NCBI RefSeq assembly: GCF_036669915.1
Contig: NC_089315.1
Location: forward strand, 12,295,255 to 12,359,254
DNA length: 64,000 bases
Direction: 5' to 3'
Source: Pocillopora verrucosa
Lineage: Eukaryota; Cnidaria; Anthozoa; Scleractinia; Pocilloporidae
The notes under the pieces are model-generated. The model was not told the origin of the DNA, ran no database searches, and saw only the letters and a list, made by a program, of their open reading frames with translations. Of this stretch, positions 15,631 through 50,487 are shown one piece after another. Both the position numbers and the translations under genes were made by a program. The first letter of the stretch is position 1. Each line of letters opens with the position of its first letter.

Positions 15631-16475
15631 AAAAATTGGCCATTAGTCTCTCCCTCTGCTTCCAATATTATGAACGCTAAAAATAATATATTTTCCCAAG
15701 CCGTGAGCAAGAGATTTATTGCAAAGAATTCTCCAGGCTTGATTTTTTAAAGCAGAGAGTGAGATTAGATTTCATTTTATGCATCTGCCGTTCAGACGGC
15801 ATACCTCATAGTGCCGAGATAAATCATTTTTAAACTCGCTAATACTTAAACAAGATAACAGCGGGTTACTTAGTGATGAGATTGAAGGGATAAAACTATC
15901 AAAACCGCAATTATGCTGAAGGAGTTTCTGCTAAGATGATAATTCCTTGAAGTTAATCCATGTTTGAAAACTCGATAATATGCTGAATACATAATATGTT
16001 TATACTGTTTTCTCACCTTGTTCTCACAAATAAGGCTTTCGTACAAAGCGATTAGCCGGTACCATTGCTACAATGTATTATACTACGAGACTCGATAAGG
16101 CTTATAGTAAGTGATGATTGATTCTAGGAGAAAGGTGGATCGTTCTACTCCCAAATTGATTTTGCTGGTGTTGATACAAATTTTTCAACACCTTTTAGAG
16201 GAATCTGTAAGTGAGAAAGCAAGCCATCCTTGGTCTGTTGTTGAATGCCGTCGTGAAAGTCAACTTTATTGAAAAAACATCATCCAATAAAAGATCAAAA
16301 TATACAAGGCGTGATAAAAGTTATCGCACACTCATAAATAAAAATCTATTGTGAAAAGATGTCCAGAGCCCCTAAGGATATAAAATATTTTACACGGTGC
16401 TTTACGAAAAAAAATTACAAATAACACGTGTCTACTTTCCAATCACATTTGCGATTGCTTCCCTGCTAAAAGGGC

Positions 16476-17940
16476 TCAACTAAAATTTGGTTGTTTTGGA
16501 ACCTTTACACATAACACTGCTGATCTTAACAAGTTAAAAGATAGTTTCTCTCTCAGCCATTGATTTACAATGCTATAATCAATCTGCTTCTTGTCAGATA
16601 GCTTCAGGGCTAGTTCGGAAAGAATTCGCTCGGTTTCTCTGCAGGAGAGGACTGAAGGAGTCATGCGCGACTTCAATGATTCGCTGGTTGTAATATTTTT
16701 TGTTATCGTTCTCATTGCTCGAGAGAGTGGTGTCAAGTTTCTGGTTTAAGTGGCTCTTTGTGAAAGGGTTAAAAACCCTGACTTCAAAAGAGACACTTTG
16801 CCAAAAAATTGCGCGCACTTACATCCAAACGAGCTTTGTCAGAGGAGTTAACTACTGGTTAACACTTCTCCTGTCAGGGTCTGAAGGTGGGGCTTGACTT
16901 CAACATCATGACATATATACATCTTTGAGAAGAGGTGCAAACAAACCTCGCACCTTGTCATGCCTCTTATGGACAAATCCGCCTTTCATACGCGACATTG
17001 CATGATCAACGTCGAATCTCTTGCCACATGGACATGTAGATGGGAGATGTTCAGATGTTCGGTGTGCAGCGGTAACTAAGGCTGAACACATCGTAAAATC
17101 CCATTTTGTTCAGGTCCAACTTCACTGACTTTAACCGAAATCATTGCAAAATAACTCGAGGCACCCTTCATCATTCCCAGGTCGTTTTCCCTCAGTTTTT
17201 CTGGGTTCATCTTCTCACAGAGCTTCTGTAGGATGGTGTTATTTAGTTCTTCTCTGGTATTGGCAAGCACCAAGATTCTCCTCTACCCATATGCATCTAA
17301 GCCAGAGGGCCCACTAGACCCCCTTGTCTTTAGGGCTGCATTTGCAATGGTAGATTCTGTTTCAAACATAACAGGGTCGACAAACGGCGGATGGTCATCC
17401 ATTAACAGTGATGGATCGGCTTCCCTTGCGTCTGGGTGTTTCCATTTAAGCTCATTTATGGTGCTTTGGGATGGAGGGAATACACCTCTATTACTCTGTT
17501 GATCCAAGAGTTTCTTAGCAGTATTTATCTTTCCTTCAAGCACAAGCTTAGCAAAGGTTTTGGCTAACTGCTCTTCGTATGGACCCTTGAGGTTTGTTAG
17601 CAATTTGGCTTGAGTCGCATTACCCTCACGAAAGAATTCATAACATATGCCAAGTTCCCATTGTGTCAAATGCCTTAAATAAAACTGGGAGTGTTCCTTT
17701 GCTTCTGACTTGAATGTTGACTTCTGGAGAAGTAAGGCAGGCATCACTATGAGGACTTTTAATGCAGTATCTTTAAACTCGATGGCATCTTAGTTCCAAA
17801 ACTCGATCCACTTTGTTGTTTCAGAGATAAATTTCTTTCCCCGCGCAGCTCTTCCCGGGAGTTTGAATAAATTCCTTCTCCAGAATACGATTTTCTCATA
17901 TATCTCATCGACCTTATGGTGGACTTCATCTTTAGTATAA
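16476..17940 (-). mobile_element. retroelement remnant with RT core missing, unit 1
   Basis: Minus-strand coding debris. Its start (about 17937) reads E-V-H-H-K-V-D-E-I, then W-R-R-N-L-F-K-L, M-P-A-L-L-L-Q-K, and G-P-S-G-L-D-A-Y-G. The 3' part has C-P-C-G-K-R-F-D-V-D-H-A-M, G-G-F-V-H-K-R-H, then V-R-V-F-N-P-F and S-F-N-L-L-R-S-A-V-L-C before TGA at 16476-16478. From memory these are the N- and C-terminal ends of a cnidarian retroelement protein that normally has a reverse transcriptase between them and a zinc-knuckle plus nuclease-like end. Here only about 50-100 residues separate the two ends. Several stops and frameshifts, including TAG after A-Y-G, make it dead. Confidence 0.7.
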
Positions 17941-19268
17941 TATTCCCATATTTCCTACTGTAACATTGACAAACGCTTGTGCTTAATCTTGCTGAACAGT
18001 CTGCACTCGCGCGGTCAACTCTGCTGGTGAAGATCGCTTTCTGCAGCTATTTCTGTAACGTAAATAATTGAGCAGAGTCCCAGGCAATGCTGTCCTTTGT
18101 CGTAATACCAGTATCAAACATAGCCAAGTTACATAAGCGACTTGATCATTAACTTCAAACTTTCTTCAATGAAAGAAAAGAAAATTTACTTTGCGCTCTT
18201 AAAAAGGTTCCTAATTTCTTAAGTTGAATACATATAGAAAGTCGTCTGTGAGTTTGAGATACAATAACGTTTGGTGAAACAGACATCTAGGTCGGTGACA
18301 TATTACAACTTTCAAGGTAAAACTGTTGCCCTAACAACTCGAATTCAAAATAAGATTCAGGTGCTCTTCGTTCGACTCAGGCTCACAAAATATGACAAGC
18401 TGATATATGAATAATTCTTCCGACCATCATCACAGATCTTTGGTCGCGACACTCGCATTTAAAACATGGATTTTTACCAGCTATCGTCGACCGTGTCGAT
18501 GTTATGGTTCAAAAAATCTCGAAAAGAAATTAAAAAACTCTTTTTTTTGGAAAAGATTAGAATATCACAACAATTGCATTTGCGTTGTGCGATTAGTATC
18601 TGATTATCTCCAGGCGTTTTATTAAAACCTTCGACTGGCTCGAAACGCACTTAAGGGACTCTTGTGTTTAAAGATATCTAAAAATTTGAATAGCATGACA
18701 ACGGAAGTGTTCTTACAAATTAGACGTATTCATTGTGTAACTTCTGCCAACTATCACCAGCCATTTTTATGAACGGTTCAACACAGCCACGAAAGCAATT
18801 AAAAATCTATTTTTGTCACATGAAACTGAAATTGAATAGCACGCATTCATTATTATGGAGAGAGATATTTGATAAATGCCGTCTCAAAAATAAGTTATTG
18901 TAGAACATTTTCACTATTTTTTAAAGACAGCATTTCGTTGTAAATCTTTTAATGTGACAGAAAATTTTACTGAAAATTTGGAGGCCTCAGAACAGTACCT
19001 GTCAGAGCGGGACGAAACGATATTTGTTTTACAAGTTTCTCCCCCGTAAAAATGCGATTGCAAGTCTCATACTTCACAATCAGTTCTTGAAAAAGACACT
19101 TAAAAATCAAACGTTAAGTCGAGGTACCCAAAATACTTTCATGAAAACGAAGGGAATTATTTATTAATTTTAAACAGTCATGTAGAAAGTTCAGATGCCA
19201 TTCTTATGATAAATTAGCTTATTTATGGTAAACACCTGTCACTTACGAGTAAGAAGACGACAAGAGAA
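17941..19268. other. unit 1 spacer between retroelement and GPCR relic
   Basis: Conserved in all four units but with no convincing coding frame. The 72-89-codon frame at 18407 changes or breaks between units, as expected for non-coding DNA. It lacks a stretch of about 18 bp near 18574 that units 2-4 have. Over about 18000-18100 its closest match is unit 4. Confidence 0.6.
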
Positions 19269-19418
19269 ATGAAAGATAACAGCACAAATGAACTTCGATC
19301 AACAGACAGTGGCACCATTACAGTTTTAGCTACTTTATACACGTTCGTTGCTGTTTTCGGCGTTGTCGGTAATACTATCGCGATAACCATAACACGAAGA
19401 ACCCCTGCTGTGAACTAA
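19269..19418 (+). pseudogene. GPCR relic, TM1 only, unit 1
   Basis: ATG start and 49 codons covering the N-terminus and TM1 (V-F-G-V-V-G-N-T-I-A-I-T-I-T-R-R-T-P) of the same dead receptor seen at 27029 and 44899. A 12-bp in-frame deletion removes A-P-D-I just before TM1. After R-R-T-P the sequence jumps to the 5' UTR exon of the next GPCR and hits TAA. It therefore forms an upstream open frame about 110 bp before the live receptor's ATG. Confidence 0.8.
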
Positions 19419-19425
19419 ACGCAAG

Positions 19426-19528
19426 GTATAGTAAAGACATTTCAAACACACGGATGCTGAACGAAATTTTTAATATTTGGTTAGGAGTCACGATTAGTTA
19501 AAGGAAGCTAACGCAAGTTTATTTTCAG
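19426..19528 (+). other. putative 103-bp 5' UTR intron, unit 1
   Basis: Donor CAAG|GTATAG and acceptor TTTATTTTCAG|G immediately before the GPCR ATG. Exactly 103 bp in all four units, with both splice sites conserved. Splicing would leave the ATG one base after the junction. Confidence 0.5.
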
Positions 19529-19529
19529 G

Positions 19530-20561
19530 ATGAACGGAAGCAACATTACCGCTTCTCCACTTATCACCACTTACGATGTCGTTTTTGCCACGTTGTACTC
19601 TTCCATTGTGTTCTTCGGCGTCACGGCAAATGGCATAATCATCACCATTGTAAGGAAAACACGAACCATGCACGCAACAACAAACTATCTGTTGATGAAC
19701 TTGGCTATAGCCGATTTTCTATCGTTGTTATTTTGTCCGGGTTTCTACGACTTTGCACTACACAAGTTTCATTTGGGCTCCGGGACACTGGGTGACATCT
19801 TTTGCAAGTTTATTGCAGGAAATGCAATCGTTTGTGTCTCTTTCGATGCCTCTGTGTTAACTCTGTGTGCCATTGCAATGGAGCGCTACCTTGGTATTGT
19901 CAAACCTTTCAACAAACGTTGGGTTCTGACGAAAAAGAATGTAAAGTTTATTATTCTTGTTATTTGGGTCACAGCTTTTTTTTCAAGCTTTCCAGATACG
20001 CTATGGACGAAGCCCAATAACGAAGACACGCCGTGGCGGTATCCCTGCACGCGTCCATGGACAGTTAAGAACCAGACTTGGAACGTCAAAGCTTACATCC
20101 TTGGCCATTCTGTCGCTCTAATTGTGCTCCCTTCAATTTTTCTTTGCTTTTGCTATATTTCAAGTTCCGCAGCACTTAAGTCAAGCGCAGGTGAACCGGA
20201 TGAAGATCCCGCTAGCAAACGGAACATGAAAAGGCTCTTAAAGCTTCTCATCTCGTTAGCTTTGGCATTTTGCTTACTCTGCCTTCCATTTGCTGTCTTC
20301 TTTTTATATGTCACCGCGCTCGCCCCTAGTCATTTAGAGCAAAGTTTTAAACCGTTGTTTCTGGCACATAGAATCGTTCGTTTTTTGCTATTTTCTAACT
20401 CATTCGTAAACCCTCTTCTTTACGCTGCTCAAAGCAAAAACTACAGAAAAGTTTTATTTCAGAAACTTCGCCTTAAAAACAACACACGTAACACAGAAAT
20501 CGAAGCCGCAGTCAGAGCCAGAGCGGAGAAACATAGAGTATATTATGAAACAGCCGTCTAA
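19530..20561 (+). CDS. class A GPCR, array copy 1
   Basis: Intact 343-residue seven-helix receptor. Landmarks: N-G-S and N-I-T sequons at the N-terminus, N34 in TM1, L-A-I-A-D62, C92 with C173, E118-R-Y120, W146, N181-Q-T in loop 2, TM5 P201, P253 in L-C-L-P (no toggle Trp), N294-P-L-L-Y298. Intracellular loop 3 is acidic then basic (E-P-D-E-D-P-A-S-K-R). The C-terminus E-T-A-V fits a class I PDZ ligand. It differs from copy 3 at about 15 positions, several in TM4 and loop 2 (F-F-S-S-F, K-P-N-N-E-D-T). It has an unusual A in M-H-A-T-T-N where all others have T. Ligand unknown; plasma-membrane signalling role inferred from family. Confidence 0.94.
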   Translation: MNGSNITASPLITTYDVVFATLYSSIVFFGVTANGIIITIVRKTRTMHATTNYLLMNLAIADFLSLLFCPGFYDFALHKFHLGSGTLGDIFCKFIAGNAIVCVSFDASVLTLCAIAMERYLGIVKPFNKRWVLTKKNVKFIILVIWVTAFFSSFPDTLWTKPNNEDTPWRYPCTRPWTVKNQTWNVKAYILGHSVALIVLPSIFLCFCYISSSAALKSSAGEPDEDPASKRNMKRLLKLLISLALAFCLLCLPFAVFFLYVTALAPSHLEQSFKPLFLAHRIVRFLLFSNSFVNPLLYAAQSKNYRKVLFQKLRLKNNTRNTEIEAAVRARAEKHRVYYETAV

Positions 20562-23509
20562 AACGATTGTCACAATAAAGAAAGATCATTTTGACATATT
20601 TGTCAAGATCGTGGTTCGTGAAAAAAAACATTTCATTCCTACTTGATGAATGGAAAGAAACACAAAGAAAGAGAAACGAATCGAAAGTGGAATGGAAGCC
20701 TATTTGCTTAACAGTCTCGATAACTTAGTTAAAATTTGTGGAACACGAAACTACAAAACACCTGTTTAGGGTGAGCTAAGCTACAAACTAAGTTTACATG
20801 TGAAAAGCGTCCTTACGGCTGCTAAGATTAACAGTCGGTCGGAGGCATCAGGTGAGGAGCGTGAAGAAGATCATATGTATTAAACTCAGTAGCGAAATAT
20901 TTCCCGAGAGGAAATCCACAAATATGCACCTTTTGTTTTTTTAGTAAACTGAATTTACCGCTGACAACTGCGAACAATGTTTTTTAAAGCCTATTTGCTT
21001 AACAATCTCGATAACTTAGTTAAAATTTGTGGAACGCGAAACTACAAAACACCTGTTTAGGGTGAGCTAAGCTACAGACTAAGTTCTTCATCAGGTGAGG
21101 AGCGTGAAGAAGATCATATGTATTAAACTCAGTCGCGAAATATTTCCCGAGAGGAAATCCACAAATATGCACCTTTTGTTCTTTTAGTAAACTGAATTTA
21201 CCGCTGACAACTGCGAACAATGTTTTTTAAATATTATTGATTTTCTAAGTTGTCAAGGAATAGAACACTGTGTTCTCAAACCCTTGAAGATTACGGACAG
21301 AAACGTTCAAAGAGATTACAGTCGAACCCAAGATAGAAAATCGTCGTTTCGTTGAATTAAGCTGTCAGCTGTAAGATTCCTAAAGAGTTGGCCATCCGGC
21401 AATACCGCCGGATTTATGGAGACGCACAACCCTCCATTGAAAGAGATTCCATACCGTCAAAAATTATCGGAATTTTTCAATGTATTTCTTAATAATAACA
21501 AGTAATGTATAATAAAGAACTCTTTGGCTTTCGTCGACAGGACAAAGAACGTTAATCTTTGCTAAATGTAGGATGTGATCATCCCTCCTACTACTGACTT
21601 GAATTTATCTCATCTTATATCACTAAAGTTAACCGGTGATCACTGAGATTACTAAATTCGCAAGTTGATTTTGCTATCCATAAGCTTTCGAACGAAATTT
21701 TCTCAAGGGTACCGTTCCATAATGACCGCTTTTCTGTGTGGCAGTCATTCCGCTACCTTTTTAGCCAATGTGCGAGCAAAGGGGCAATAGTGTTTTGTTT
21801 CTTCGAGGGACTCCCGCTTAGTTTGAGCCTCTCTAGGTGAGTTATCGATCCACAGTAAGTAGTTACGAAGCCAATCAACCTAATACTTGATCTGTGAATG
21901 TTTCTAACCTCTGTGAATTAGTAGACATTTAAAAGAGGTATCGTGAAACCACTGAAAACATGTCATTACATCGGCCCATTAAGATAAGGGTAATATCAGA
22001 GTTGACTGATGAGAATTCCAATTAAATGCACAAGACCAGCTTTAAAGTTGGGAAATTAGGAACTTGCCCTTGGGTTTGGTTTTTCATTCGGTTTTTTAAA
22101 TGCAAATTGACTCTTACCGCCGCCGCCGTAATAAGGCTGAAAAATAAAAACAGCTTCATAGTTGCGATGCTTAAAACTTCTGAAATATATCGTAAGGTTG
22201 TTATTCCTTTTTCCTTTATTTCTACTTTGTAATACTATTATTATTATTCTTTCCTTTGTCCTTCTGATGTTTGTCGTATCTGTATGTGTTTTAATTCAAA
22301 TTTGGTTTTTCGTGGAATCTTACATATAAATGGAGTATATAGGTGGGTTCAAAAGCCAATCGTAAGGCACAGCAAAGGAGAAACCAAAACAATTTCCAAT
22401 AGTTTCGAAATCAAACAATGGAAACTTGACTTGAAGAACAAAGTGATTTCTTGGTGCGAAGCATTAGAAGGTGATTTGTCACTTTTCTGTCATGAACTAA
22501 GCTGAACTTGCCACATTGAAACCTGTGAGTAGTCTTCTTTTTTTCCTTTTTTTTTTTTTTTGCTTTTCTCTTCTAAACTAACACTTGTGCAACATGCTTT
22601 CAAGTGAATAGACCGTTTTGTGGCAATCTCATATTCATTGACGCAATTTTGAATTGATGTCGAAAGTATCACATGAATGCTTTAGATTTACCGTTTCCCA
22701 AACTTCTTATCACTTTTCTGCTAAATTTTTCAACCCTGCTCATGTAAATGAATTCTTTGGTGCGGTCCACGAAGTACGCTTTAAGCAAATTCATAGGCAA
22801 CGTTCGATTTATGATCGTCAAACATGTTCTGAATTTTTTTTTTATAAAAAAAAAGACACGCTGTTGCAAACGGACTCAGAGGCGCCACGAATATCTTAAT
22901 GGAACAGGCGATCCCGGCTGCGTGATATAGATGGAAACTTGATATAGAGAACCTATAGATAGCAGGTTCAATCTTCGCACAAAAGTCCTTGAGGAATTAT
23001 TTGAATCTAAGACTGCTTTTAATAGAATTACAGGCGCCGAGTATGCTCGGTACATTAGTAGGTAAAGCAGAAAGTGCTCCAGTATATGTCATCAGAACAT
23101 TCATGATTTCTGGAGTGTTTTCCATTCAAGTCTACCCAAAAAGAAAACAGAGAAACAAAACAAATTAGTGTTCATTTTCGCGCGAGAAACATCTCTAAGC
23201 AATTCGACTTAGATAGACTGTGCGCCGACATCGCCGGGCGAAAGGCGTCAAGTATGCTGTCATTCATCTATTTCATACATGAAAATCTCCGGCTCCGAAC
23301 TTGGCCTCAGTGCGTACTGGGGAATAGTCTCCTGCCGATTCACAGCGTCACTTACACGTACCCTCAAATGAATAATTAATTAATAAATATGAATATTCCA
23401 TGCATTTCACTACCTTGTTTCCATAAGCCAAATAAAGCGTCATTTGAGCGATCCCAGATTAATTTACTTGCCATAACAATGACATTGAGATGACGGATAA
23501 TCTGAAAAA
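20562..23509. other. unit 1 3' spacer
   Basis: Non-coding 3' flank shared by all units. AATAAA at 21511-21516 is kept in units 1-3 and is a candidate poly(A) signal. It contains T-rich and A-rich runs near 22540 and 22840. The short frames here are broken differently in each unit, so none is called as a gene. It matches unit 3 best (for example the CGCTGTTGCAAACGGACTC stretch). Confidence 0.6.
20696..21230. repeat. local direct duplication in the 3' flank, unit 1 only
   Basis: 20696-20986 is repeated at 20987-21230, from AAGCCTATTTGCTTAACA to GCGAACAATGTTTTTTAA. The second copy lacks about 50 bp in its middle. Units 2-4 have one copy, so this event is recent and private to unit 1. Confidence 0.85.
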
Positions 23510-24599
23510 AAAATTGGCCATTAGTCTCTCCCTCTGCTTCCAATCTTATGAACGCTAAAAATAATATGCTTTCCCAAGCCGTGAGAAAGAGATTTATTAC
23601 AAAGAATTCTTTAGGCTTGATTTTTTAAAGCAATGAGTGAGATCAGATTTCATTTTATCCATCTACCATTCAGATTGCATACCTCACAGTGCCGAGATAA
23701 AACATGTTTAAACTCGCTGATACTTAAACAAGATAACAGCGGGTTACTTAGTGATGAGATTGAAGGGATAAAACTATCAAACCGCAATTATGCTGAAGGA
23801 GTTTCTGCTAAGATGATAATTCCTTGAAGTTAATCCATGTTTGTAAACTCGATAATATGCTGAATACATAATATGTTTATGCTGTTTTCTCACCTTGAAA
23901 AGAAAACGAATCGAAAATGTATTTCAACAACCAAGACTTTTCTCAGTCTTGTCAGGAATCTCGAATGTTTACTGCGTGTAAAAAAAAGAATCTAAGGAAA
24001 AGCATAAGTAAAGTGTGCAATGAGAATTGATTAGCAATCGAATGTTTTAATGAAATCAAGATCATGCAGCTCGCTTAAGGAGTCCTATAGCCAATGAAAA
24101 AACGACAAAAGTAACCAATCAGTTCTCACAAATAAGGCTTTCGTACAAAACGATTAGCCGGTACCATTGCTACAATGTATTATACTACGAGACCCGATTA
24201 GGCTTATAGTAAGTGATGATTGATTCTATGACAAAGTTGGGTCGTTCTACTCCCAACTTTACTTTGTTTAGTGGCGTTGACACAAACTTTTCAACACCTG
24301 TTAGAGGAATCTGTTCTATTGTAAGTGAGAAAGCTAGCCATCATTGGTCTGTTGTTGAATGCCGTCGTGAAAGTCAACTTTATTGAAAAAACATCATCCA
24401 ATAAAAGATCAAAATATACAAGGCATGATAAAAGTTATCACAAACTCATTTATAAAAATCTATTGTGAAAAAATGTCCAGAGCCCATAAGGGTAAAAAAT
24501 ATTTTACACGGTGCTTTACGAAAAAAAAATTACAAATAACACGTGTCTACTATATCTTTCCAATCACATTTGCGATTGTTCCCCTGCTAAAATCAGGGC

Positions 24600-25680
24600 T
24601 CAACTAAAATTTGGTTGTTTTGGAACCTTTTACACATAACACTGCTGATCTTAACAAGTTAAAAGATAGTTTTTATCTCAGCCATTGATTTGCAATGCTA
24701 TAATCAATCTGCTTCTTGTGAGAGTAAAAACCCTGACTTCAAAAAAGACACGTTGCCCCCTTTGCCAAAACATTGCGCGCACTTACATCCAAACGAGCTT
24801 TGTCAGAGGAGTTGGCGCTACTGGTTAACACTTCTCCTGTCACGGTCTGAAGGTGGGGCTTGACTTAAACATCATGACACACATATTTGAGAAGAGGTGC
24901 AAACAAACCTCGCACCTTGTCATGTCTCTTATGGACAAATCCGCCTTTCATACGCGACATTGCATGATCAACCTCGAATCTCTTGCCACAAGGACATGTA
25001 GATGAGAGATGTTCAGATGTTCGGTGTGCAGCGGTAACTAAGGCTGAACACATCGTAAAATCCCATTTTGTTCAGGTCCAACTTCACTGACTTTAACTGA
25101 AATAATTGCAAAATAACTCGAGGCAACCTTCATCATTCCCAGGTCGTTTTCCCTCAGTTTTTCTGGGTTCATCTTCTCACAGAGCTTCTGTGGGATGGTG
25201 TTATTTAGTTCTTCTCTGGTATTGGCAAGCACCAAGATTCTCCTCTACCCATATGCATCTAAGCCAGAGGGCTCACAAGACCCCCTTGTCTTTAGGGCTG
25301 CATTTGCAATGGTAGATTCTGTTTGAAACATAACAGGGTTGACAAACGAAGGACGGTCATCCATTAACAGTGATGGATCGGCTTCCCTTGCGTCATTTAG
25401 ACCTTTGAGGTTTGTTAGCAATTTGGCTTGAGTCGCACTACCCTCACGAAAGAATTCATAACATATACCCAGTTCCCATTGTGTCACATGCCTTAACAAA
25501 CACTGGGAGTGTTCCTTTGCTTCTGACTTGAATGTTGGCTTATGGAGAAGTACAGTAAGGCAGGCATCACTATGAGGACTTTTAATGCAGTATCTTTAAA
25601 CTCCTTTAAATTCCTTCTCCAGAATACGATTTTCTCATATATCTCATCGACCTTATGGTGGACTTCATCTTTAGTATAAT
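24600..25680 (-). mobile_element. retroelement remnant with RT core missing, unit 2
   Basis: Same minus-strand element as in unit 1 but further eroded. A deletion near 24720 removes most of the C-terminal frame (the part before V-F-N-P-F), one near 25398 joins the L-K-G-L-N segment directly to D-A-R-E-A-D-P, and one near 25606 removes the segment coding for F-I-S-E-T-T-K-W. C-P-C-G-K-R-F and G-G-F-V-H-K-R-H remain. The TAG after A-Y-G is shared with units 1 and 3. Confidence 0.68.
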
Positions 25681-29314: not shown

Positions 29315-29417
29315 GTATAGTAAAGACATTTCAAACACACGTATGCTGAACGAAATTTTTAATATTTGGTTAAGAGTCACGATTAATAAGAGGAAGCTAA
29401 CGCAAGTTTATTTTCAG
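29315..29417 (+). other. putative 103-bp 5' UTR intron, unit 2
   Basis: CAAG|GTATAG donor and TTTATTTTCAG|G acceptor, with the ATG at the second exon base. Same length as in the other three units. Confidence 0.5.
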
Positions 29418-29418
29418 G

Positions 29419-37048: not shown

Positions 37049-37210
37049 ATGAAAGATAACAGCACAAAAGAACTTCGATCAACAGATAGTGGCACCATTA
37101 GAGTACCAGACATTGTTTTAGCTACTTTATACACGTTTGTTGCTGTTTTCGGTGTTGTCGGTAATACTATCGCGATAACCATAACACGAAGAACCCCTGC
37201 TGTGAACTAA
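37049..37210 (+). pseudogene. GPCR relic, TM1 only, unit 3
   Basis: ATG and 53 codons of the dead receptor's N-terminus and TM1, then the same junction as unit 1 into the live receptor's 5' UTR exon and a TAA at 37208-37210. Unlike unit 1, it keeps the V-P-D-I segment before TM1. Confidence 0.8.
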
Positions 37211-37217
37211 ACGCAAG

Positions 37218-37320
37218 GTATAGTAAAGACATTTCAAACACACGCATGCTGAACGAAATTTTTAATATTTGGTTAAGAGTCACGATTAGTTAAAGGAAGC
37301 TGACGCAAGTTTATTTTCAG
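37218..37320 (+). other. putative 103-bp 5' UTR intron, unit 3
   Basis: CAAG|GTATAG donor and TTTATTTTCAG|G acceptor directly before the ATG, as in the other units. Confidence 0.5.
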
Positions 37321-37321
37321 G

Positions 37322-38353: not shown

Positions 38354-41019
38354 AACGATTGTCACAATAAAGAAAGATCATTTTGACATATATGTCAAGA
38401 TCGTGGTTCATGAAAAAAACATTTCATTCCTACTTGATGAATGGAAAGAAACACAAAGAAAGAGAAACGAATCGAAAGTGGAATGGAAGCCTATTTGCTT
38501 AACAGTCTCGATAACTTAGTTAAAATTTGTGGAACACGAAACTACAAAACATCTGTGTAGGGTGAGCTAAGCTACAGACTAAGTTTACATGTGGAAAGCG
38601 TCCTTACGGCTGCTAAGATTAACAGTCGGTCGAAGGCATCAGGTGAGGAACGTGAAAAAGATCATATGTATTAAACTCAGTCGCGAAATATTTCCCGAGA
38701 GGAAATCCACAAATATGCACCTTTTGTTTTTTAGCAAACTGAATATACCGCTGACAACTGCGAACAATGCGATTAAATATTATTGATTTTCTAAGTTGTC
38801 AAGAAATAGAACACTGTGTTCTCAAACCCTTGAAGATTATGGACAGAAACGTTCAAAGAGATTACAGTCGAACCCAAGATAGAAAATCGTCTATGCAAAT
38901 AATGTTTCGTTGAATTAAGCTGTCAGCTGTAAGATTCCTAAAGAGTTGGCCATCCGGCAATACCGCCGGATTTATGTAGAAGCACAACCCTCCATTGGAA
39001 GAGATTCCATACCGTCAAAAATTATCGGAATTTTTCAATGTATTTCTTAATAATAACAAGTAATGTATAATAAAGAACTCTTTGGCTTTCGTCGACGGGA
39101 CAAAGAACGCTAATCTTTGCTAAATGTAGCATGTGATCATCCCTCCTACTACTGACTTGAATTTATCTCATCTTATATCACTAAAGTTAACCGGTGATCA
39201 CTGAGATTACTAAATTCGCAAGTTGATTTTGCTATCCATAAGCTTTCGAACGAAATTTTCTCAAGGGCACCGTTCCCTAATGACCGCTTTTCTGTGTGGC
39301 AGTCATTCCGCTACCTTTTTAGCCAATGTGCGAGCAAAGGGGCAATAGTGTTTTGTTTCTTCGAGGGACTCCCGCTTAGTTTGAGCCTCTCTCTAGGTGA
39401 GGTATCGATCCACAGTAAGTAGTTACGAAGCCAATCAACCTAATACTTGATCTGTGAATGTTTCTAACCTCTGTGAATTAGTAGACATTTAGAATAGGTA
39501 TCGTGAAACCACTGAAAACATGTCATTACATCGGACCATTAAGATAAGGGTAATATCAGAGTTGACTGATGAGAATTCCAATTAAATGCACAAGACCAGC
39601 TTTGAACTTGGGAAATTAGGAGCTTGCCTTTGGGTTTGGTTTTTCATTCGGTTTTTTAAATGCAAATTGACTCTTACCGCCGCCGCCGTAATAAGGCTGA
39701 AAAATAAAAACAGCTTCATAGTTGCGATGCTTAAAACTTCTGAAATATATCTTAAGGTTGTTCTTCCTTTTTCCTTTATTTCTACTTTGTAATACTATTA
39801 TTATTATTCTTTCCTTTGTCGTTCTGATGTTTGTCGTATCTGTATGTGTTTTAATTCAAATTTGGTTTTTCGTGGAATCTTACATATAAATGGAGTATAT
39901 AGGTGGGTTGAAAAGCCAATCGTAAGGCACAGGAAAGGAGAAACCAAAACAATTTTCAATAGTTTCGAAATCAAACAATGGAAACTTGACTTGAAGAACA
40001 AAGTGATTTCTTGGTGCGAAGCGTTAGAAGGTGATTTGTCACTTTTCTGTCATGAACTAAGCTGAACTTGCCACATTGAAACCTGTGAGTAGTCTTCTTT
40101 TTTTCCTTTTTTTTTTTTAACACTTGTGCAACATGCTTTCAAGTGAATAGACCGTTTTGTGGCAATCTCATATTCATTGACGCAATTTTGAATTGATGTC
40201 GAAAGTATAACATGAATGCTTTAGATTTACCGTTTCCCAAACTTCTTATCACTTTTCTGCTAAATTTTTCAACCCTGCTCATGTAAATGAATTCTTTGGT
40301 GCGGTCCACGAAGTACGCTTTAAGCAAATTCATAGGCAACGTTCGATTTATGATCGTCAAACATGTTCTGAATTTTTTTTTTATAAAAAAAAAGACACGC
40401 TGTTGCAAACGGACTCAGAGGCGCCACGAATATCTTAATGGAACATGCGATCCCGGCTGCCAGATATAAATAGTAGGTTCAATCTTCGCACAAAAGTCCT
40501 TGAGGAATTATTTGAATCTAAGACTGCTTTTAATAGAATTACAGGCGCCGAGTATGCTCGGTACATTAGTAGGTAAAGCAGAAAGTGCTCCAGTATATGT
40601 CATCAGAACATTCATGATTTCTGGAGTGTTGTCCATTCATGTCTACCCAAAAAGAAAACAGATAAACAAAACAAATAAGTGTTCATTTTCGCGCGAGAAA
40701 CATCTCTAAGCAATTCGACTTAGATAGACTGTGCGCCGACATCGCCGGGCGAAAGGCGTCAAGTATTCTGTCATTCATCTATTTCATGCATGAAAATCTC
40801 CGGCTTCGAACTTGGCCTCAGTGCGTAATGGGGAATAGTCTCCTGCCGATTCACAGCGTCACTTACACGTACCCTCAAGTGAATAATTAATTAATAAATA
40901 TGAATATTCCATGCATTTCACTACCTTGTTTCCATAAGCCAAATAAAGCGTCATTTGAGCGATCCCAGATTAATTTACTTGCCATAACAATGACATTGAG
41001 ATGACGGATAATCTGAAAA
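38354..41019. other. unit 3 3' spacer
   Basis: Non-coding; AATAAA about 715 bp past the stop. Closest to unit 1. A poly(T) run near 40106 is shorter than in the siblings. No gene seen. Confidence 0.6.
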
Positions 41020-42090
41020 AAAAATTGGCCATTAGTCTCTCCCTCTGCTTCCAATCTTATGAGCGCTAAAAGTAATATGCTTTCCCAAGCCGTGAGAAAG
41101 AGATTTATTACAAAGAATTCTCCAGGCTTGATTTTTTAAAGCAATGAGTGAGATCAGATTTCATTTTATCCATCTACCATTCAGATTGCATACCTCACAG
41201 TGCCGAGATAAAACATGTTTAAACTCGCTGATACTTAAACAAGATAACAGCGGGTTACTTAGTGATGAGATTGAAGGGATAAAACTATCAAACCGCAATT
41301 ATGCTGAAGGAGTTTCTGCTAAGATAATAATTCCTTGAAGTTAATCCATGTTTGTAAACTCGATAATATGCTGAATACATAATATGTTTATGCTGTTTTC
41401 TCACCTTGAAAAGAAAACGAATCGAAAATGTATTTCAACAACCAAGACTTTTCTCAGTCTTGTCAGGAATCTCGAATGTTTACTGCGTGTAAAAAAAAGA
41501 ATCTAAGGAAAAGCATAAGTAAAGTGTGCAATGAGAATTGATCAAGACCATGCAGCTCGCTTAAGGAGTCCGATAGCCAATGAAAAAACGACAAACTGGA
41601 AGTAACCAATCAGTTCTCACAAATAAGGCTTTCGTACAAAGCGATTAGCCGGTACCATTGCTACAATGTATTATACCACGAGACCCGATTAGGCTTATAG
41701 TAAGTGATGATTGATTCTATGACAAAGTTGGGTCGTTCTACTCCCAAATTGATTTTGCTCAGTGGCGTTGATACAAACTTTTCAACACCTGTTAGAGGAA
41801 TCTGTTCTATTGTAAGTGAGAAAACAAGCCATCATTGGTCTGTTGTTGAATGCCGTCGTGAAAGTAAACTTTATTGAAAAAACATCATCCAATAAAAGAT
41901 CAAAATATACAAGGCATGATAAAAGTTATCACAAACTCATGTATAAAAATCTATTATGAAAAGATGTCCAGAGCCCATAAGGGTAAAAAATATTTTACAC
42001 GGTGCTTTACGAAAAAAAAATTACAAATAACACGTGTTTACTCTATCTTTCCAATCACATTTGCGATTGCTTCCCTGCTAAAATCAGGGC

Positions 42091-43560
42091 TCAACTAAAA
42101 TTTGGTTGTTTTGGAACCTTTTACACATAACACTGCTGATCTTAACAAGTTAAAAGATAGTTTTTATCTCAGCCATTGATTTGCAGTGCTATAATCAATC
42201 TGCTTCTTGTCAGATAGCTTCAGGGCTAGTTCGGAAAGAATTCGCTCGGTTTCTCTGCAGGAGAGGACTGAAGGAGTCATATGCGACTTCAATGACTCGC
42301 TGGTTGTAGTATAGTTTTTTATCGTTCTCATTGCTCGAGAGAGTGGTGTCAAGTGTCTGGTTTAAGTGGCTCTTTGTGAAAGGGTTAAAAACCCTGACTT
42401 CAAAAAAGGCACTTTGCCCCCTTTGCCAAAAAGTTGCGCGCACTTACATCCAAACGAGCTTTGTCAGAGGAGTTGGCGCTGCTGGTTAACCCTTCTCCTG
42501 CCAGGCTTGACTTAAACAACATGACACACATCTTTGAGAAGAGGTGCAAACAAACCTCGCACCTTGTCATGTCTCTTATGGACAAATCCGCCTTTCATAC
42601 GCGACATTGCATGATCAACGTCGAATCTCTTGCCACAAGGACATGTAGATGGGAGATGTTCAGATGTTTGGTGAGCAGTGGTAACTAAGGCTGAACACAT
42701 CGTAAAATCCCATTTTGTTCAGGTCCAACCTCACTGACTTTAACTGAAATAATTGCAAAATAACTCGAGGCACCCTTCATCATTCCCAGGTCGTTTTCCC
42801 TCAGTTTTTCTGGGTTCATCTTCTCACAGAGCTTCTGTAGGATGATGTTATTTAGTTCTTCTCTGGTATTGGCAAGCACCAAGATTCTCCTATACCCATA
42901 TGCATCTAAGCCAGAGGGCCCAGTAGACCCCCTTGTTTTTAGGGCTGCATTTGCAATGGTAGATTCTGTTTGAAACATAACAGGGTCGACAAACGGCGGA
43001 TGGTCATCAATTAACAATGATGGATCGGCTTCCCTTGCGTCTGGATGTTTCCGTTTTAGCCCATTTATGGTGCTTTGGGATGGAGGGAATACACCTCTAT
43101 TACTCTGTTGATCCAAGAGTTTCTTAGCAGTATTTATCTTTCCTTCAAGCACAAGCTTAGCAAAGGTTTTGGCTAACTTCTCTTCATTTAGATCCTTGAG
43201 GTTTGTTAGCAATTTGGCTTCAGTCGCACTACCCTCACGAAAGGATTCATAACATATACCAAGTTCCCATTGTGTCAAATGCCTTAACAAACACTGGGAG
43301 TGTTCCTTTGCTTCTGACTTGAATGTTGGCTTCTGGAGAAGTAAGGCAGGCATCACTATGAGGACTTTTCATGCAGTATCTTTAAACTCGATGGCATCTT
43401 AGTTCCAAAACTCGATCCACTTTGTTGTTTCAGAGATAAATTTCTTTCCCCGCGCAGCTCTTCTCGGGAGTTTGAATAAATTCCTTCCCCAGAATACGAT
43501 TTCCTCATATATCTCATCGACCTTATGGTGGACTTCATCTTTAGTATAATCTTCCCATAT
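42091..43560 (-). mobile_element. retroelement remnant with RT core missing, unit 4
   Basis: Best preserved copy: 223 codons are open from 43356 to 42685, running from M-P-A-L-L-L-Q-K through P-P-F-V-D-P-V-M-F, G-P-S-G-L-D-A-Y-G-Y-R-R-I-L-V to L-R-E-N-D-L-G-M-M-K-G-A-S-S-Y-F. The codon that is TAG in units 1-3 is TAT here. The C-terminal part has C-P-C-G-K-R-F-D-V-D-H-A-M, G-G-F-V-H-K-R-H, A-R-L-D-V and V-R-V-F-N-P-F in other frames. No reverse transcriptase motif (YxDD) lies between them. Still non-functional. Confidence 0.72.
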
Positions 43561-44898
43561 TTCCTACTGTGACATTGACAAACGCTTGTGCTTAATCTTG
43601 CTGAACAGTCTGCACTCGCGCGGTCAACTCTGCTGGTGAAGATCGCTTTCTGCAGCTATTTCTGTAACGTAAATAATCGAGCAGAGTCCCAGACAATGCT
43701 GTCCTTTGTCGTAATACCAGTATCAAACATAGCGTAGTTACATATGCGACTTGATCATTAACTTCAAACTTTCTTCAATGAAAGAAAAGCAAATTTACTT
43801 TGCGCTCTTAAAAAGGTTCCTAATTTCTTAAGTTGAATACATATAGAAAGTCGTCTGTGAGTTTGAGATACAATAACGTTTGGTGAAACAGACATCTAGG
43901 TCGGTGACATATTATAACTTTAAAGGTAAAACTGTTGCCCTAACAACTCGAATTCAAAATAAGATTCAGGTGCTCTTCGTTCGACTCAGACTCACTAAAT
44001 ATGGCAAGCTGATATATGAATAATTCTTCCGACCATCATCACAGATCTTTGGTCGCGACACTCGCATTTAAAACATGGATTTTTTACCAGCTATCGCCGA
44101 CCGTGTCGATGTTATGGTTCAAAAACTCTCGAAAAGAAATTAAAACACTCTTTTTTTTGGAAAAGATTAGAATATCACAACAATTGGGCATTTTTGAGAA
44201 CTAAACGGCATTTGCGTTGTGCGATCAGTATCTGATTATCTCCAGGCGTTTTATGAAAACCTTCGACTGGCTTGAAACGCAATTAAGGGACTCTTGTGTT
44301 TAAAGATGGCTAAAAATTTGAATAGCATGACAACTGAAGAGTTCTTACAAATTAGACGTATTCATTGTGTAACTTCTGCCAACTATCACCAGCCATTTTT
44401 ATGAACGGTTCAACACAGCCACGAAAGCAATTAAAAAACTATTTTTGTCACTGAAATTGAAATTGAATAGCACGCATTCATTATTATAGAGAGAGATATT
44501 TGATAAATGCCGTCTCAAAAATAAGTTATTGTAGAAAATTTTCAGTATTTTTTAAAGACAGCATGTCGTTGTAAATCTTTTAATGTGACAGAAAATTTTA
44601 CTGAAAATTTAGAGGCCTCCGAACAGTACCTGTCAGAGCGGGACGAAACGATATTTGTTTTACAAGTTTCTCCCCCGTAAAAATGCGATTGTAAGTCTCA
44701 TACTTCACAATCAGTTCTTGAAAAAGACACTTAAAAATCAAACGTTAAGTCGAGGTTCCCAAAATACTTTCATGAAACGAAGGGAATTATTTATTAATTT
44801 TAAACAGTCATGTAGAAAGTTTAGATGTCATTCTTATGATAAATTAGCTTCTTTATGGTAAACACCTGTCACTTACGAGAAAGAAGACGACAAGAGAA
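43561..44898. other. unit 4 spacer between retroelement and GPCR pseudogene
   Basis: Non-coding; here unit 4 is most like unit 1 (for example GTAACGTAAATAAT near 43665) and not like unit 2, its partner in the GPCR region. Confidence 0.6.
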
Positions 44899-45308
44899 AT
44901 GAAAGGTAACAGCACAAAAGAACTTCGATCAACAGATAGTGGCACCATTACAGCGCCAGACATTGTTTTAACTACTTTATACACGTTCGTTGCTGTTTTC
45001 GGCGTTGTCGGTAATACTATCGTGATAACCATAACACGAAGAACCCCTTCAATGCACACAACAAAAAACTATCTCTTCTTAAATTTAGCCGAGGCTGATA
45101 TCGTGCCTTTCGTTCTCTGTCCTTGGGTGTACGACTCTGCTTTACCAACGTCAGCCTAAAAAGGGATTCACGGGGGATTTTATCTGCAAACTTTTTTGTT
45201 TCTGACACAGAAACAGAGAGAAAGACAAAGAAACAAGTAGCTCTCCTTCTCATCTTAGTGACAGTCGCCATTTTCATTTGCTTCCTACCATTTTATTTAT
45301 TAACTTGA
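44899..45308 (+). pseudogene. dead class A GPCR with internal deletion, unit 4
   Basis: Same dead receptor as 27029-27813 but with about 430 bp removed from after TM2 to before TM6, joining the D-F-I-C-K-like region to T-E-R-K-T-K-K-Q. The 5' part is better kept than in unit 2: M-H-T-T-K-N-Y-L-F-L-N-L-A-E-A-D is readable, where A-E-A-D replaces A-V-A-D. A TAA follows P-T-S-A at 45157-45159. The TM6 end reads C-F-L-P-F before TGA. Confidence 0.85.
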
Positions 45309-46817
45309 ATTTTTGACAATTATCAACTCACCTGGGTAAATGAGTCAAAATATGTCACCAGATTATTCCCCTCTAAACGATAGATAATATGCCGGTTTAC
45401 AAAAACGAATTTTCAAAGTGTGATACTTGAATAGGACCTTATCTCTTACTCATTAGTTGTTAGTTACGAATAATTTTTGACAGTTAAATATAAAAACATT
45501 CAAGTCAATTTTCACACCATCATCAGTTTGCTGTTGTAACAAGGCAAAGCAAACAATAAGAATGGCTGTTATCCTACTGGTGACAGATGAGTGTTAATAC
45601 ATCATCTTCGTGTCATCGGATTAACAGGGAAAATGTTACAGTTTGCTACAGTTTGGCGAATTAGTGCCAAAACTCCGTACATTCGGTCTAAACAAACAAA
45701 AAGCTTTTGCAGTTTCCTCTTCGAAGATCGCATCACGGAAAACAATAGATTATGACCCAATCAGAAGCATATGCCTACGTCGATGTTTTTAAAGGATTTG
45801 TTATTCCCAGCTTCCACAAGGATCAGGCGCAGATGGCCACGCAATAAAGAAATGAAATAATAAAAGCTTTTAGAAAGGATACACAAATAAAACACTCTCT
45901 CATTACATATAAAGTTTTGAACTAAGCGGGAAGGAAATTATCAATTCACTTTAGACCTGACATTTGACAGGTGAGATCTGAATAACGTGACTCTGTGAAG
46001 AGGGGGGAGTTAAAGTGAATTAAAGTCTACTAGAACATCCCAAAGTTTTTCAAAATACAAAAAATGACTCAAGAATCAGTCGCTAAGTCTTCAGTATGAG
46101 AAACATAATGAGATAAAAATATATCGAATTTTCCTAATTTTCATGATCAGTATAAGCCGATATGCATCATCTGTGCGAAATTAATGCTATTCAACTAACA
46201 TGGCTAGCGGCTTAAGTCTGCGCCGAAAAATAACTCGCTTGTTCAGTAGCCAGTGGTGTATTTACAAGAATTCACTCTAAGAAGATGAAGAACTGGTCAA
46301 TTATTGAGGTGATTCCTTACAACTTTAATCACAAGTCACCGGGAAAATCGAGAGATCGGTGCTAAGTTGATTTATGCGTATCTTTTCATAAACATAAGGG
46401 TCTAAACGGGGTCAACTGTTAGCCTTTTTACCCCTAAAAAATTTTCCTTTTATAACAATAGCAAGCTATTAACCGTAAGCCGTAGAACTAGCCAAATTTT
46501 TAAACACTAGCCGTCAAAGCCATTACCCCGGCCCATTGACACCCTTATACGTCAAAATTTATTGCACAATTTTCGGCGGGAAATTAAGGACAATGGGATG
46601 TTGAAAAATGTAAATCAAATAAATGAAATCCAGACCAATTTAAAAGTGTAATTTCCGTGCTATTCTGTATTTTTTTAACTCAAAAGTTCGAGGGACTGTC
46701 CGACTCACTTGTTTTGTTACAACCTCTTGCTTACCACGGTTCGTTTTAAACGCTGCCGCAAGAATTGTTTAAGACTCGATCCGCCTACGATCGGTTTTGC
46801 TGTGAACTAAACGCAAG
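45309..46817. other. unit 4 spacer between dead and live GPCR
   Basis: Counterpart of 27814-29314. It holds the decayed MITE-like element at 46402-46539 and, at its end, the putative 5' UTR exon. No coding frame supported. Confidence 0.55.
46402..46539. mobile_element. short MITE-like element, unit 4
   Basis: Second copy of the 28904-29039 element, carried along by the unit duplication. The left end has mutated (TCTAAACGGG) while CCCATTGA is kept on the right. Confidence 0.45.
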
Positions 46818-46920
46818 GTATAGTAAAGACATTTCAAACACACGCATGCTGAACGAAATTTTTGACATTTGGTTAAGAGTCTCGATTAATTAAAGAAAGC
46901 TAACGCAAGTTTATTTTCAG
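46818..46920 (+). other. putative 103-bp 5' UTR intron, unit 4
   Basis: CAAG|GTATAG donor and TTTATTTTCAG|G acceptor; same length as in units 1-3 despite substitutions inside. Confidence 0.5.
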
Positions 46921-46921
46921 G

Positions 46922-47959
46922 ATGAACGGAAGCAACATTACCACTTCTCCACTTATCACCACTCACGATGTCGTTTTTGCTACATTGTACTCTTCCATCG
47001 TGTTCTTCGGCGTCACGGCAAATGGCATAATCATCACCATTGTAAGGAAAACACGAACCATGCATACAACAACAAACTATCTGTTGATGAACTTGGCTAT
47101 AGCCGATTTTCTAACGTTGTTATTTTGTCCGGGTTTCTACGACTTTGCACTACACAAGTTTCAATTGGGTTCCGGGACACTGGGTGACATCTTTTGCAAG
47201 TTTATTGCAGGAAATGCAATCGTTTGTGTCTCTTTCGATGCCTCTGTGTTAACTCTGTGTGCCATTGCAATGGAGCGCTACCTTGGTATTGTCAAACCTT
47301 TCAACAAACGTTGGGCTCTGACCAAAAAGAATGTAAAGTTTATTATTCTTGTTATTTGGGTCACAGCTGCTTTTTCAAGCTTTCCAGATACGCTATGGAC
47401 GAAGCACAATAACGATGACATATTGTCGCCACGGCGGTATCCCTGCACGCGTCCATGGACAGTTAAGAACCAGACTTGGAACGTCAAAGCTTACATCCTT
47501 GGCCATTCTGTCGCTCTAATTGTGCTCCCTTCAATTTTTCTTTGCTTTTGCTATATTTCAAGTTCCGCAGCACTTAAGTCAAGCGCAGGTGAACCGGATG
47601 AAGATCCCGCTAGCAAACGGAACATGAAAAGGCTCTTAAAGCTTCTAATCTCGTTAGCTTTGGCATTTTGCTTACTCTGCCTTCCATTTGCTGTCTTCTT
47701 TTTATATGTCACCGCACTCGCCCCTAGTCATTTAGAGCAAAGTTTCAAACCGTTGTTCCTGGCACACAGAATCGTTCGTTTTTTGATATTTTCTAACTCA
47801 TTCATAAACCCTCTTCTTTACGCTGCTCAAAGCAAAAACTACAGAAAAGTTCTGTTTCAGAAACTTGGTCTTAAAAACAACACACGTAACACAGAAAACG
47901 AAGCCGCAGTCAGAGCCAGAGCGGAGAAACATAGAATATATTATGAAACAGCCGTTTAA
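46922..47959 (+). CDS. class A GPCR, array copy 4
   Basis: Intact 345-residue receptor with the long loop 2 of copy 2 (N-N-D-D-I-L-S-P) but followed by R-R-Y-P-C where all the others have W-R-Y-P-C. Landmarks: C92-C175, E118-R-Y120, P255 in L-C-L-P, N296-P-L-L-Y300, E-T-A-V end. The N-terminus reads N-G-S-N-I-T-T. The tail has L-G-L-K-N-N instead of L-R-L-K-N-N. Ligand unknown. Confidence 0.94.
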   Translation: MNGSNITTSPLITTHDVVFATLYSSIVFFGVTANGIIITIVRKTRTMHTTTNYLLMNLAIADFLTLLFCPGFYDFALHKFQLGSGTLGDIFCKFIAGNAIVCVSFDASVLTLCAIAMERYLGIVKPFNKRWALTKKNVKFIILVIWVTAAFSSFPDTLWTKHNNDDILSPRRYPCTRPWTVKNQTWNVKAYILGHSVALIVLPSIFLCFCYISSSAALKSSAGEPDEDPASKRNMKRLLKLLISLALAFCLLCLPFAVFFLYVTALAPSHLEQSFKPLFLAHRIVRFLIFSNSFINPLLYAAQSKNYRKVLFQKLGLKNNTRNTENEAAVRARAEKHRIYYETAV

Positions 47960-50487
47960 GACGATTGTCGCAATAAAGAAAGATCATTTTCACATATTTG
48001 TCAAGAGTGTGGTTCGTGAAAAAAACATTTCATTCTTACTTGACGAATGGAAAGAAAGACAAAGAAAGAGAAACGAATCGAAAGTGGAATCGAAGCCTAT
48101 TTGCTTAACAGTCTCGATAACTTAGTTAAAATTTGTGGAACACGAAACTACAAAACACCTGTTTAGGGTGAGTTAAGCTACAGACTAAGTTTACATGCGA
48201 AAAGCGTCCCTACGACTGCTAAGATTAACAGTTGGTCGGAGGCATCAGATGAGGAGCTTGAAGAAGATCATATGTATTAAACTCAGTTGCGAAATATTTC
48301 CAGAGAGGAAATCCACAAGTATGCACCTTTTGTTTTTTTAGCAAACTAAATATACCGCTGACAACTGCGAACAATGAGATAACAGTCGAACCCAAGATAG
48401 AAAATCGTCTGATGCAAATAATGTTTCGTTGAATTAAGCTGTCAGTTGTAAGATTCCTCAAGAATTGGCCATCCGGCAATACCGCCGGATTTATGGAGAC
48501 GCACAACCGTCCATTGGAAGAGATTCAATAACGTCAAAAATTATCGGAATTTTTCAATGTATTTCTTAATAATAACAAGTAATGTATAATTAAGAACTGT
48601 TTGGCTTTCTTCGACAGGTCAAAGAATGCTAATCTTTGCTAAGTGTAGCATGTGATCATCCCTCCTACTACTGACTTGATTTATCTCATCTTATATCACT
48701 AAAGTTAACCAGTGATCACTGAGATTACTAAATTCGCAAGTTGATTTTGCTATCCTTAAGCTTTCGAACGAAATTTTCTCATGGGCATCGTTCCCTAATG
48801 ACCGCTATTCTGTGTGGCAGTCATTCCGCTACCTTTTAGCCAATGTGCGAGCAAAGGGGTAATGGTGTTTTGTTTCTTCGAGGGACTCCCTCTTAGTTTG
48901 AGCCTCTCTTTAGGTGAGGTATCGATCCAAAGTAAGTAGTTACGAAGCCAATCATCCTAATATTTGATCTGTGAATGTTTCTAACCTCTGTGAATTAGTA
49001 GACATGTAGAAGAGGTATGGTGAAACCACTGAAAACATGTCATTACATCGGCCCATTAAGATAAGGGTAATATCAGAGGTGACTGATGAGAATTCAAATT
49101 AAATGCACGAAACCAGCTTTGAACTTGGGAAATTAGGAACTTGCCCTTAGGTTTGGTTTTTCATTTGGTTTTTTAAATGCAAATTGACTCTTACCGCCTT
49201 GAGTAATGAGGCTGAAAAATAAAAACAGCTTCATAGTTGCGATCTTTAAAACTTCTGAAATATATCGTAAGGTTCCTATTCCTTTTTCCTTTATTTCTAC
49301 TTTTTAATACTATTATCATTATTCTTTTCTTTGTCCTTCTGATGTTTGTTGTATCCATATGTGTTTTAATTCAAATTTGGTTTATCGTGGAATCTTAAAT
49401 ATAAATGAAGTAGATAGGTGGGTTCAAAAGCTAATCGTAAGGCACAGCAAAGGAGAAACCAAAACAATTTTCAACAGTTTCGAAATCAAACAATGGAAAC
49501 TTGACTTGAAGAACAAAGTGATTCCTTGGTGCGAAGCATTAGTAGGTGATTTGTCACTTTTCTGTCATGAACTAAGCTGTGAGTACTCTTCTATTTTTGC
49601 TTTTTTTTTCTTTTTTAAACAAACACTTGCGCAGCATGCTTTCAAGAGAATAGACCGTTTTGTCGCAATCTCATATTCATTGACGCAATTTTGAAATGAT
49701 GTCGAAAGTATAACATGAATGCTTTAGATTTACCGTTTCCCAAACTTCTTATCACTTTTCTGATAAATTTTTCAACCCTGCTCATGTAAATGAATTCTTT
49801 GGTGCGGTCCACGAAGTACGCTTTAAGCAAATTCATAGGCAACATTCGATTTATGATCGTCAAACATGTTCTGAATTTTTTTTCAATAAAAAAAGAGACA
49901 CTGTTGCAAAAGGACTCAGAGGCGCCACGAATATCTTAATGGACAGGTGATCCCGGCTGCCTGATATAAATAGTAGGTTCAATCTTCGCACAAAAGTCGT
50001 TGAGGAATTATTTGAAACTAAGACTGCTTTTAATGGAATTACAGGCGCCGAGTATGCTCGGTACATTAGTAAGTAAAGCAGAAAGTGCTCCAACATATGT
50101 CATCAGAAAATTCATGATTTCTGGAGCGTTGTCCATTCAGGTCTACTCGAAAAACAAAACAAATTAGTGTTAATTTTCACGCGAGAAACAACTTTAAGTA
50201 CTTCGACTTAGACAGACTGTGCGCCGACATCGCCGAGCGAAAGGCGTCAAGTATTCTGTCATTTATCTATTTCATACATGAAAATCTCCGGCTCCGAACT
50301 TGGCCTCAGTGCGTACTTGGGAATAGTCTCCTGCCGATTCACAGCGTCACTTACACGTACCCTCAAATGAATAATTAATTAATAAATATGAATATTCCAT
50401 GCATTTCACTACCTTGTTTCCATAAGCCAAGCTATGCCACATTAATTTACTTGCTATAACAATGACATTGAGATGGCGGAAAATTAA
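47960..50487. other. unit 4 3' spacer
   Basis: Non-coding. The AATAAA kept in units 1-3 is mutated here (TATAATTAAG near 48587). About 80 bp seen in the other units are missing near 48376. The 111-codon frame at 49359 is broken in the siblings and is not called. Confidence 0.55.

Follow-up and report, generated by a model that had tools for sequence, protein, structure and literature searches.

Among the gene families amplified in corals, the rhodopsin-like GPCR is the commonest domain (34 of 192 orthogroups), and tandem clusters were found to hold 29.9% and 32.6% of the genes, with expansions at the genus or species level (Noel et al. 2023, PMC10236652). GPCR expansion is likewise reported in PMC12005167, and hexacorals are described as having expanded their peptide-type class A receptors late and on a large scale (Thiel et al. 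2024, PMC11087051). On the basis mainly of exon/intron structure, corals have been judged to undergo gene conversion very rarely (PMC10236652); for gene expansion in Acropora, NAHR, unequal crossover or break-induced replication has been proposed, and haplotype copy numbers differ (PMC12314368). Sea anemone toxin families show concerted-like evolution, for which the choice between conversion and lineage-specific duplication was left open (PMC6802032).

The array described here, probably of a stony coral, resembles the coral GPCR families of PMC10236652 in consisting of tandemly duplicated rhodopsin-like GPCRs. It differs from the picture drawn there in having mosaic units and a strong tract of near identity, found by comparing DNA that is mostly noncoding. 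As in the Acropora proposal, unequal crossover is considered a possible engine of expansion, although that case concerns TPR-CHAT genes in megabase regions (PMC12314368) and the present array covers 35 kb with four units and repeat-free joins. With the anemone toxins it shares that conversion or unequal crossover between copies is considered, here in a probable cnidarian, whereas the gene family differs (PMC6802032). Coral tandem GPCR expansion is already known, and the modestly interesting part here is the exchange between copies, which is noteworthy because gene conversion is deemed very rare in PMC10236652. No class is amplified more often in the coral genomes of that study than receptors, and the array bears on how their copies arise and then either stay alike or diverge.

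Layout of the array and its receptors

The window, that is, the whole 64-kb stretch of DNA analysed (C4:12295255-12359254), contains four direct head-to-tail units, which appear in self-BLAST within the window as direct diagonals at offsets of ~7.9, 9.6, 17.5 and 25.6 kb. The diagonals confirm the direct four-unit tandem array of the original prediction, in which the unit starts were placed correctly to within a base and the short-long-short-long alternation of sizes was rightly recognized:

15631..23509, plus strand: U1, short unit, 7879 bp (self-BLAST, MAFFT)
23510..33149, plus strand: U2, long unit, 9640 bp (self-BLAST, MAFFT)
33150..41019, plus strand: U3, short unit, 7870 bp, mosaic
41020..50487, plus strand: U4, long unit, 9468 bp, without 392 bp present in the relic receptor of U2

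In the four-unit MAFFT alignment, unit pairs are 95.6-96.8% identical over 7190-9028 compared bases, and U1 and U2 diverge by 4.1%. On this sequence evidence, length and identity are too great for chance to be an issue. The units were also said to open alike; the unit at 33150 begins AAAAAAAGGCC, not AAAAATTGGCC. Among the best-scoring candidates of a search of the genome (353 Mb in 52 contigs), the 7 pieces that match the first 601 bases of U1 fall exclusively on the four unit starts of the array, and the terminal 2.2 kb of U1 has four matches, each within the window. Runs of A form the joins between units, and the flanks outside the array resemble the units in receptor coding sequence only. 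Both the outer ends and the joins were inspected, and a transposon-flanked origin was rejected since no repeat was found at them. Two minus-strand ORFs (17283-17747 in U1 and 42685-43356 in U4) were set aside, with Pfam matches below the cut-off (best E 0.02 and 0.15); the ORF list of the window holds no minus-strand counterpart of at least 150 aa in U2 or U3, and nothing reached the gathering threshold in Rfam.

Each unit carries one intact receptor, and the lengths of the four proteins alternate, both as predicted:

19530..20561, plus strand: U1 receptor, intact class A GPCR, 343 aa (ORF, PF00001)
29419..30456, plus strand: U2 receptor, intact class A GPCR, 345 aa (ORF, PF00001, structure match, AlphaFold2 model)
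37322..38353, plus strand: U3 receptor, intact class A GPCR, 343 aa (ORF, PF00001)
46922..47959, plus strand: U4 receptor, intact class A GPCR, 345 aa (ORF, PF00001)

The four reading frames are open and score 155.9 (U1), 148.6 (U2), 153.9 (U3) and 156.8 (U4) bits against PF00001, all above the curated cut-off of 30.5, and are by Pfam full-length class A (rhodopsin-like) GPCRs. The residues E118-R119-Y120, N296-P-L-L-Y300, C92 and C175 are invariant in all nine receptors of the window; we take them to be the E/DRY motif, the NPxxY motif and the TM3-ECL2 cysteine pair that mark class A. An AlphaFold2 model of the U2 receptor (mean pLDDT 74.8) puts predicted helices at places where seven would be expected. 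Within the best 60 of 716 solved-structure matches, the U2 receptor matches neuropeptide Y receptor 2 (NPY2R) best (E 1.5e-25), followed by NPFF, ghrelin, somatostatin and galanin receptors and then by aminergic receptors and rhodopsin. This best match, made by sequence, is a likeness to the hexacoral neuropeptide receptors (PMC11087051), and our best guess is that the ligand of the array receptors would be a peptide. Its name is withheld because one-to-one orthology between cnidarian and bilaterian peptide receptors is nearly absent according to the same study (PMC11087051). The product of each copy is predicted to be a receptor in the plasma membrane that couples to G proteins.

The difference between 343 and 345 residues is one in-frame 6-bp indel common to U1 and U3 versus U2 and U4, which in the model falls between long helices four and five, in a loop predicted with low confidence (residues 166-170 in U2). 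Clustering of amino-acid differences near this indel in extracellular loop 2 was suggestive by eye and not significant (P 0.15). All four array receptors end in a C-terminal ETAV, which presumably resembles a class I PDZ ligand.

The short units, the dead receptor and probable constraint on the intact one

A block of ~2.1 kb in U2, 1.75 kb of which is found in U4, is missing from U1 and U3 at the identical base. The deletion point has one shared T, i.e. 1 base of microhomology, and lies within a second, dead receptor:

27179..29294: long-unit block of U2, absent from U1 and U3 (gap points 19405/19406 and 37197/37198)
27029..27798, plus strand: relic receptor in U2, a pseudogene with several stops and frameshifts, best match the receptor at 9977
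44899..45293, plus strand: relic receptor at the same place in U4, with an internal loss of 392 bp
19239..19405, plus strand: 5' stub of the relic receptor in U1, ending at the deletion
37049..37197, plus strand: 5' stub of the relic receptor in U3, ending at the same base as the U1 stub

The dead receptor begins 5' of the deletion point in all four units; its homology continues past the point in U2 and U4 but ends there in U1 and U3. Because the relic is cut in the short units and continuous in the long ones, the long form is ancestral and the short form derived. As read from the aligned units, this shows that the short form arose once, by a deletion of ~2.1 kb through the neighbouring dead receptor. 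That the long units gained the 2.1 kb by insertion is rejected, since receptor homology spans the point in the long units and is severed in the short ones. The original prediction had treated long as a type diverging beside short; the relic receptor identifies it as the ancestral state.

The intact receptors contrast with the relic. Across 1038 coding columns the alignment has a single gap, of 6 bp and in frame, whereas the 7182 noncoding columns have 60 (P 0.0017); 8.7 coding gaps would be expected at the noncoding rate, and P is 0.014 after merging neighbouring gaps. Moreover, dN is lower than dS in six of six pairs by both NG86 (dN 0.018-0.031, dS 0.039-0.071) and YN00 (synonymous divergence 0.03-0.06). 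The best reading is that the receptor frame is under constraint, and the dN/dS ratios of 0.27-0.54 (NG86) and 0.40-0.80 (YN00) mean that the constraint on amino acids is weak. The same ratios, which reach from 0.27 to 0.80 by pair and method, and the finding that 33 of the 52 ungapped variable codons alter the amino acid would also suit copies that are neutral and transient and lack any function of their own. We consider this unlikely, as the receptors are open in all four units, the coding frame is depleted of gaps, and the neighbouring relic has decayed within the very units where the array receptors stay open. A tandem receptor expansion is upheld, and its having been caught early is true only in a relative sense (dS 0.04-0.07 by NG86 and 0.03-0.06 by YN00).

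Mosaic relationships among the units and their probable history

A clean duplication of a short-long block would leave U1-U3 and U2-U4 equally divergent everywhere. Among the 98 sites that divide the units two against two, 66 group U1+U3 versus U2+U4, and the other two groupings have 14 and 18 sites. The groupings occupy separate tracts, with 21 switches versus 48 expected (0 of 20000 shuffles as low). U1+U3 is favoured by 9 of 11 sites in columns 0-1551 and by 47 of 50 from column 7229 on, U1+U2 by 7 of 7 in columns 1693-2580, and U2+U3 by 13 of 13 in columns 2606-3558. In this alignment, different tracts of the units are shown to have different closest partners.

Divergence between units two apart is also uneven, ranging from 2.0 to 7.8% by tract. 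From column 7229 on, in the 3' third, U1-U3 differ at 56/2808 bases (2.0%) and U2-U4 at 136/2676 (5.1%; Fisher 4e-10); in columns 0-1200 the values are 73/940 (7.8%) and 26/1168 (2.2%; Fisher 3e-9). Separate pairwise alignments again gave 56/2808 and 73/940 for U1-U3, with 126/2677 (4.7%) and 26/1168 for U2-U4 (Fisher 2e-8 and 3e-9); they are a better check than a --localpair realignment, which had the same length as the first alignment and is hence a weak one. The noncoding tracts were compared unrooted. Weighing against the history favoured below, divergence is low in every pair in the unit middle (columns 1600-4082; 2.1-4.4% outside the U2-U3 tract described below), and inside the receptor the six pairs are alike (2.3-3.8%) and uninformative on grouping. 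The receptor tree is (R2,(U4,(U2,(U1,U3)))), in which R2 is the flanking receptor at 14164: U1+U3 form a clade (98/96), U2+U4 form none, and the fork separating U4 from U2 has support of 91/78. The duplicated short-long pair proposed originally is supported as far as the majority grouping, the shared deletion and the shared indel go, and a single clean duplication is not supported, given the unevenness of divergence and the separate tracts of the groupings.

Two kinds of tract stand out. Alone in the array, some 5 kb around the joins of U1 with U2 and of U3 with U4 seem to be sisters two units apart, and a second tract makes U2 and U3 almost identical:

19406..24703: sister stretch spanning the join of U1 and U2, with ~2% divergence at either end and a blurred left edge
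37198..42194: apparent sister of 19406..24703, across the U3/U4 join
25691..26770: near-identical tract, U2 side, 2/1049 bases differing
35711..36790: near-identical tract, U3 side, 2/1049 bases differing

The sister stretches differ at 93/4167 bases (2.2%), and the long-only sequence of U2 and U4 differs about twice as much, at 74/1708 (4.3%). In the outer parts of the units, U1-U3 and U2-U4 are no closer than other pairs. The left edge is blurred because U1 and U3 differ at 9 sites just before the deletion (columns 3850-4082). U3 is mosaic, with a U2-like piece upstream of the deletion and a U1-like piece from about the deletion onward. The ~2% sister divergence falls within the range of heterozygosity given for two corals, 2.3% and 1.14% (PMC10236652).

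Tracts neighbouring the near-identical one diverge by 3-4% between U2 and U3, and the near-identity is therefore bounded by normal divergence, the mark by which concerted evolution through gene conversion between copies is recognized. The longest runs of identical polymorphic sites are 26 for U2-U3 and 23 for U2-U4, and none of 2000 column shuffles was as extreme. A U1-U2 run of 14 such sites lies in columns 7385-7599 (global P 0.016) and suggests a further exchange, which is left out of the simple history.

We consider it probable, on these relationships, that tandem duplication was followed by unequal crossover or ectopic conversion between units, leaving the copies mosaic. The three layers of divergence (about 5%, 2% and 0.2%), with the deletion as a tracer, make the order of events partly readable. 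A first tandem duplication would have joined short A-rich ends by microhomology, the units would then have drifted apart to about 5%, and one of them would have lost 2.1 kb. Misaligned arrays may then have exchanged, most simply by crossover of a three-unit with a two-unit haplotype, whereby a second copy of the stretch from the U1 deletion to the start of U2 would have become the end of U3 and the start of U4; ectopic conversion of about 5 kb would leave the same trace. Later, a recent conversion over ~1.05 kb may have made U2 and U3 nearly identical. The alternation of sizes would follow from this exchange, through which the stretch with the deletion came to lie a second time two units further along.

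The alternative of a clean short-long block duplication, in which the start of U1 or U3 and the end of U2 or U4 were later overwritten by copies now gone, draws on the 66 of 98 sites, the deletion and the 6-bp coding indel that unite U1 with U3. We regard it as improbable: it requires at least two extra overwritings from donors outside the array, leaves the 2.0 to 7.8% range at the two-unit offset and the excess of the long-only divergence of U2-U4 over that of the sister stretch to be accommodated, and sits poorly with a receptor tree without a U2+U4 clade. It is similarly improbable that the assembly falsely joined, inside U3, two haplotypes with two- or three-unit arrays, for although a chimeric join there would give the same picture and 2.0-2.2% is possible between coral alleles at the heterozygosity cited above (PMC10236652), simple stacking of haplotypes would yield uniform low divergence over 17.5 kb and not the uneven pattern observed, leftover copies of the unit start and end were not found elsewhere among the best-scoring candidates of the genome search, and the array lies in a 31.4 Mb contig; in any case, the 4.1% difference between U1 and U2 makes it likely that an array of two or more units really exists.

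Whether exchange of misaligned units, within and between haplotypes, keeps the tandem GPCR arrays of this genome changing and makes their copies mosaic is in our judgement an even question. If it does, a deletion suffered once would spread to other array positions, and, provided that the genome is a coral's, the claim that gene families of corals are nearly free of conversion would have a local counter-example. Whole-gene trees of such arrays can mislead because adjacent tracts of one unit differ in their closest partner.

The surrounding receptor cluster

Nine intact class A receptors lie in the window, at 9977 (minus strand), 14164 (plus), the four array positions, 50800 (minus), 56622 (minus) and 60533 (plus). 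Those next to the array are:

14164..15255, plus strand: R2, intact receptor, likely ATG at 14221, 53-56% amino-acid identity to the array receptors
50800..51837, minus strand: R7, intact receptor (ORF, Pfam, tree)

In a tree of 30 receptors (the 9 of the window and 21 of 117 scored genome hits), R2 is the closest relative of the array receptors. The 117 scored hits lie on 13 contigs numbered between C1 and C14, with none on C7; scleractinians typically have 14 chromosomes (2n=28; PMC12005167). A tenth receptor lies 14.5 kb past the window, so that nine intact receptors in 64 kb and one beyond form a tandem cluster; these ten group in one clade (100/100) with two others, on C10 and at C4:26.2 Mb. 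The tenth is a copy of the 60533 receptor with 98% protein identity. This duplication of ~4 kb, which pairs 60016-64148 with 78017-82264 (window numbering) at a distance of 18 kb, is separate from the array and young.

Duplication around the 60533 receptor

Approximately 4 kb including the intact class A receptor at 60533, which lies outside the four-unit array, is duplicated, with the second copy located 18 kb downstream at around 98% identity. This is a second, young duplication.

60016-64148, copy in the window
C4:12373271-12377518, copy beyond the window on the same contig (L039)

A 214-bp imperfect palindrome, whose reverse complement matches it at 82%, was identified at 63544-63757. Among the genome-wide receptor matches, further dense clusters occur at 6.7-7.8 Mb of contig C10 and 12.75-12.81 Mb of contig C9.

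Features of the array units

All four array receptors terminate in ETAV (ends 20561, 30456, 38353, and 47959), a tail that resembles a PDZ-binding one. The first unit (U1) carries a local tandem duplication of about 245 bp at 20696-21231 (82% between copies), which is absent from the other units.

Open stretches and reverse-transcriptase fragment

17283-17747, minus strand, open stretch in U1
42685-43356, minus strand, open stretch in the fourth unit (U4)
55325-55858, plus strand, reverse-transcriptase fragment (PF00078, E 2.9e-11)

The two open stretches are akin to each other, and a Pfam search of both returned nothing above the cut-off; our impression is that they may resemble a mobile element. 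The reverse-transcriptase fragment is flanked by receptor genes.
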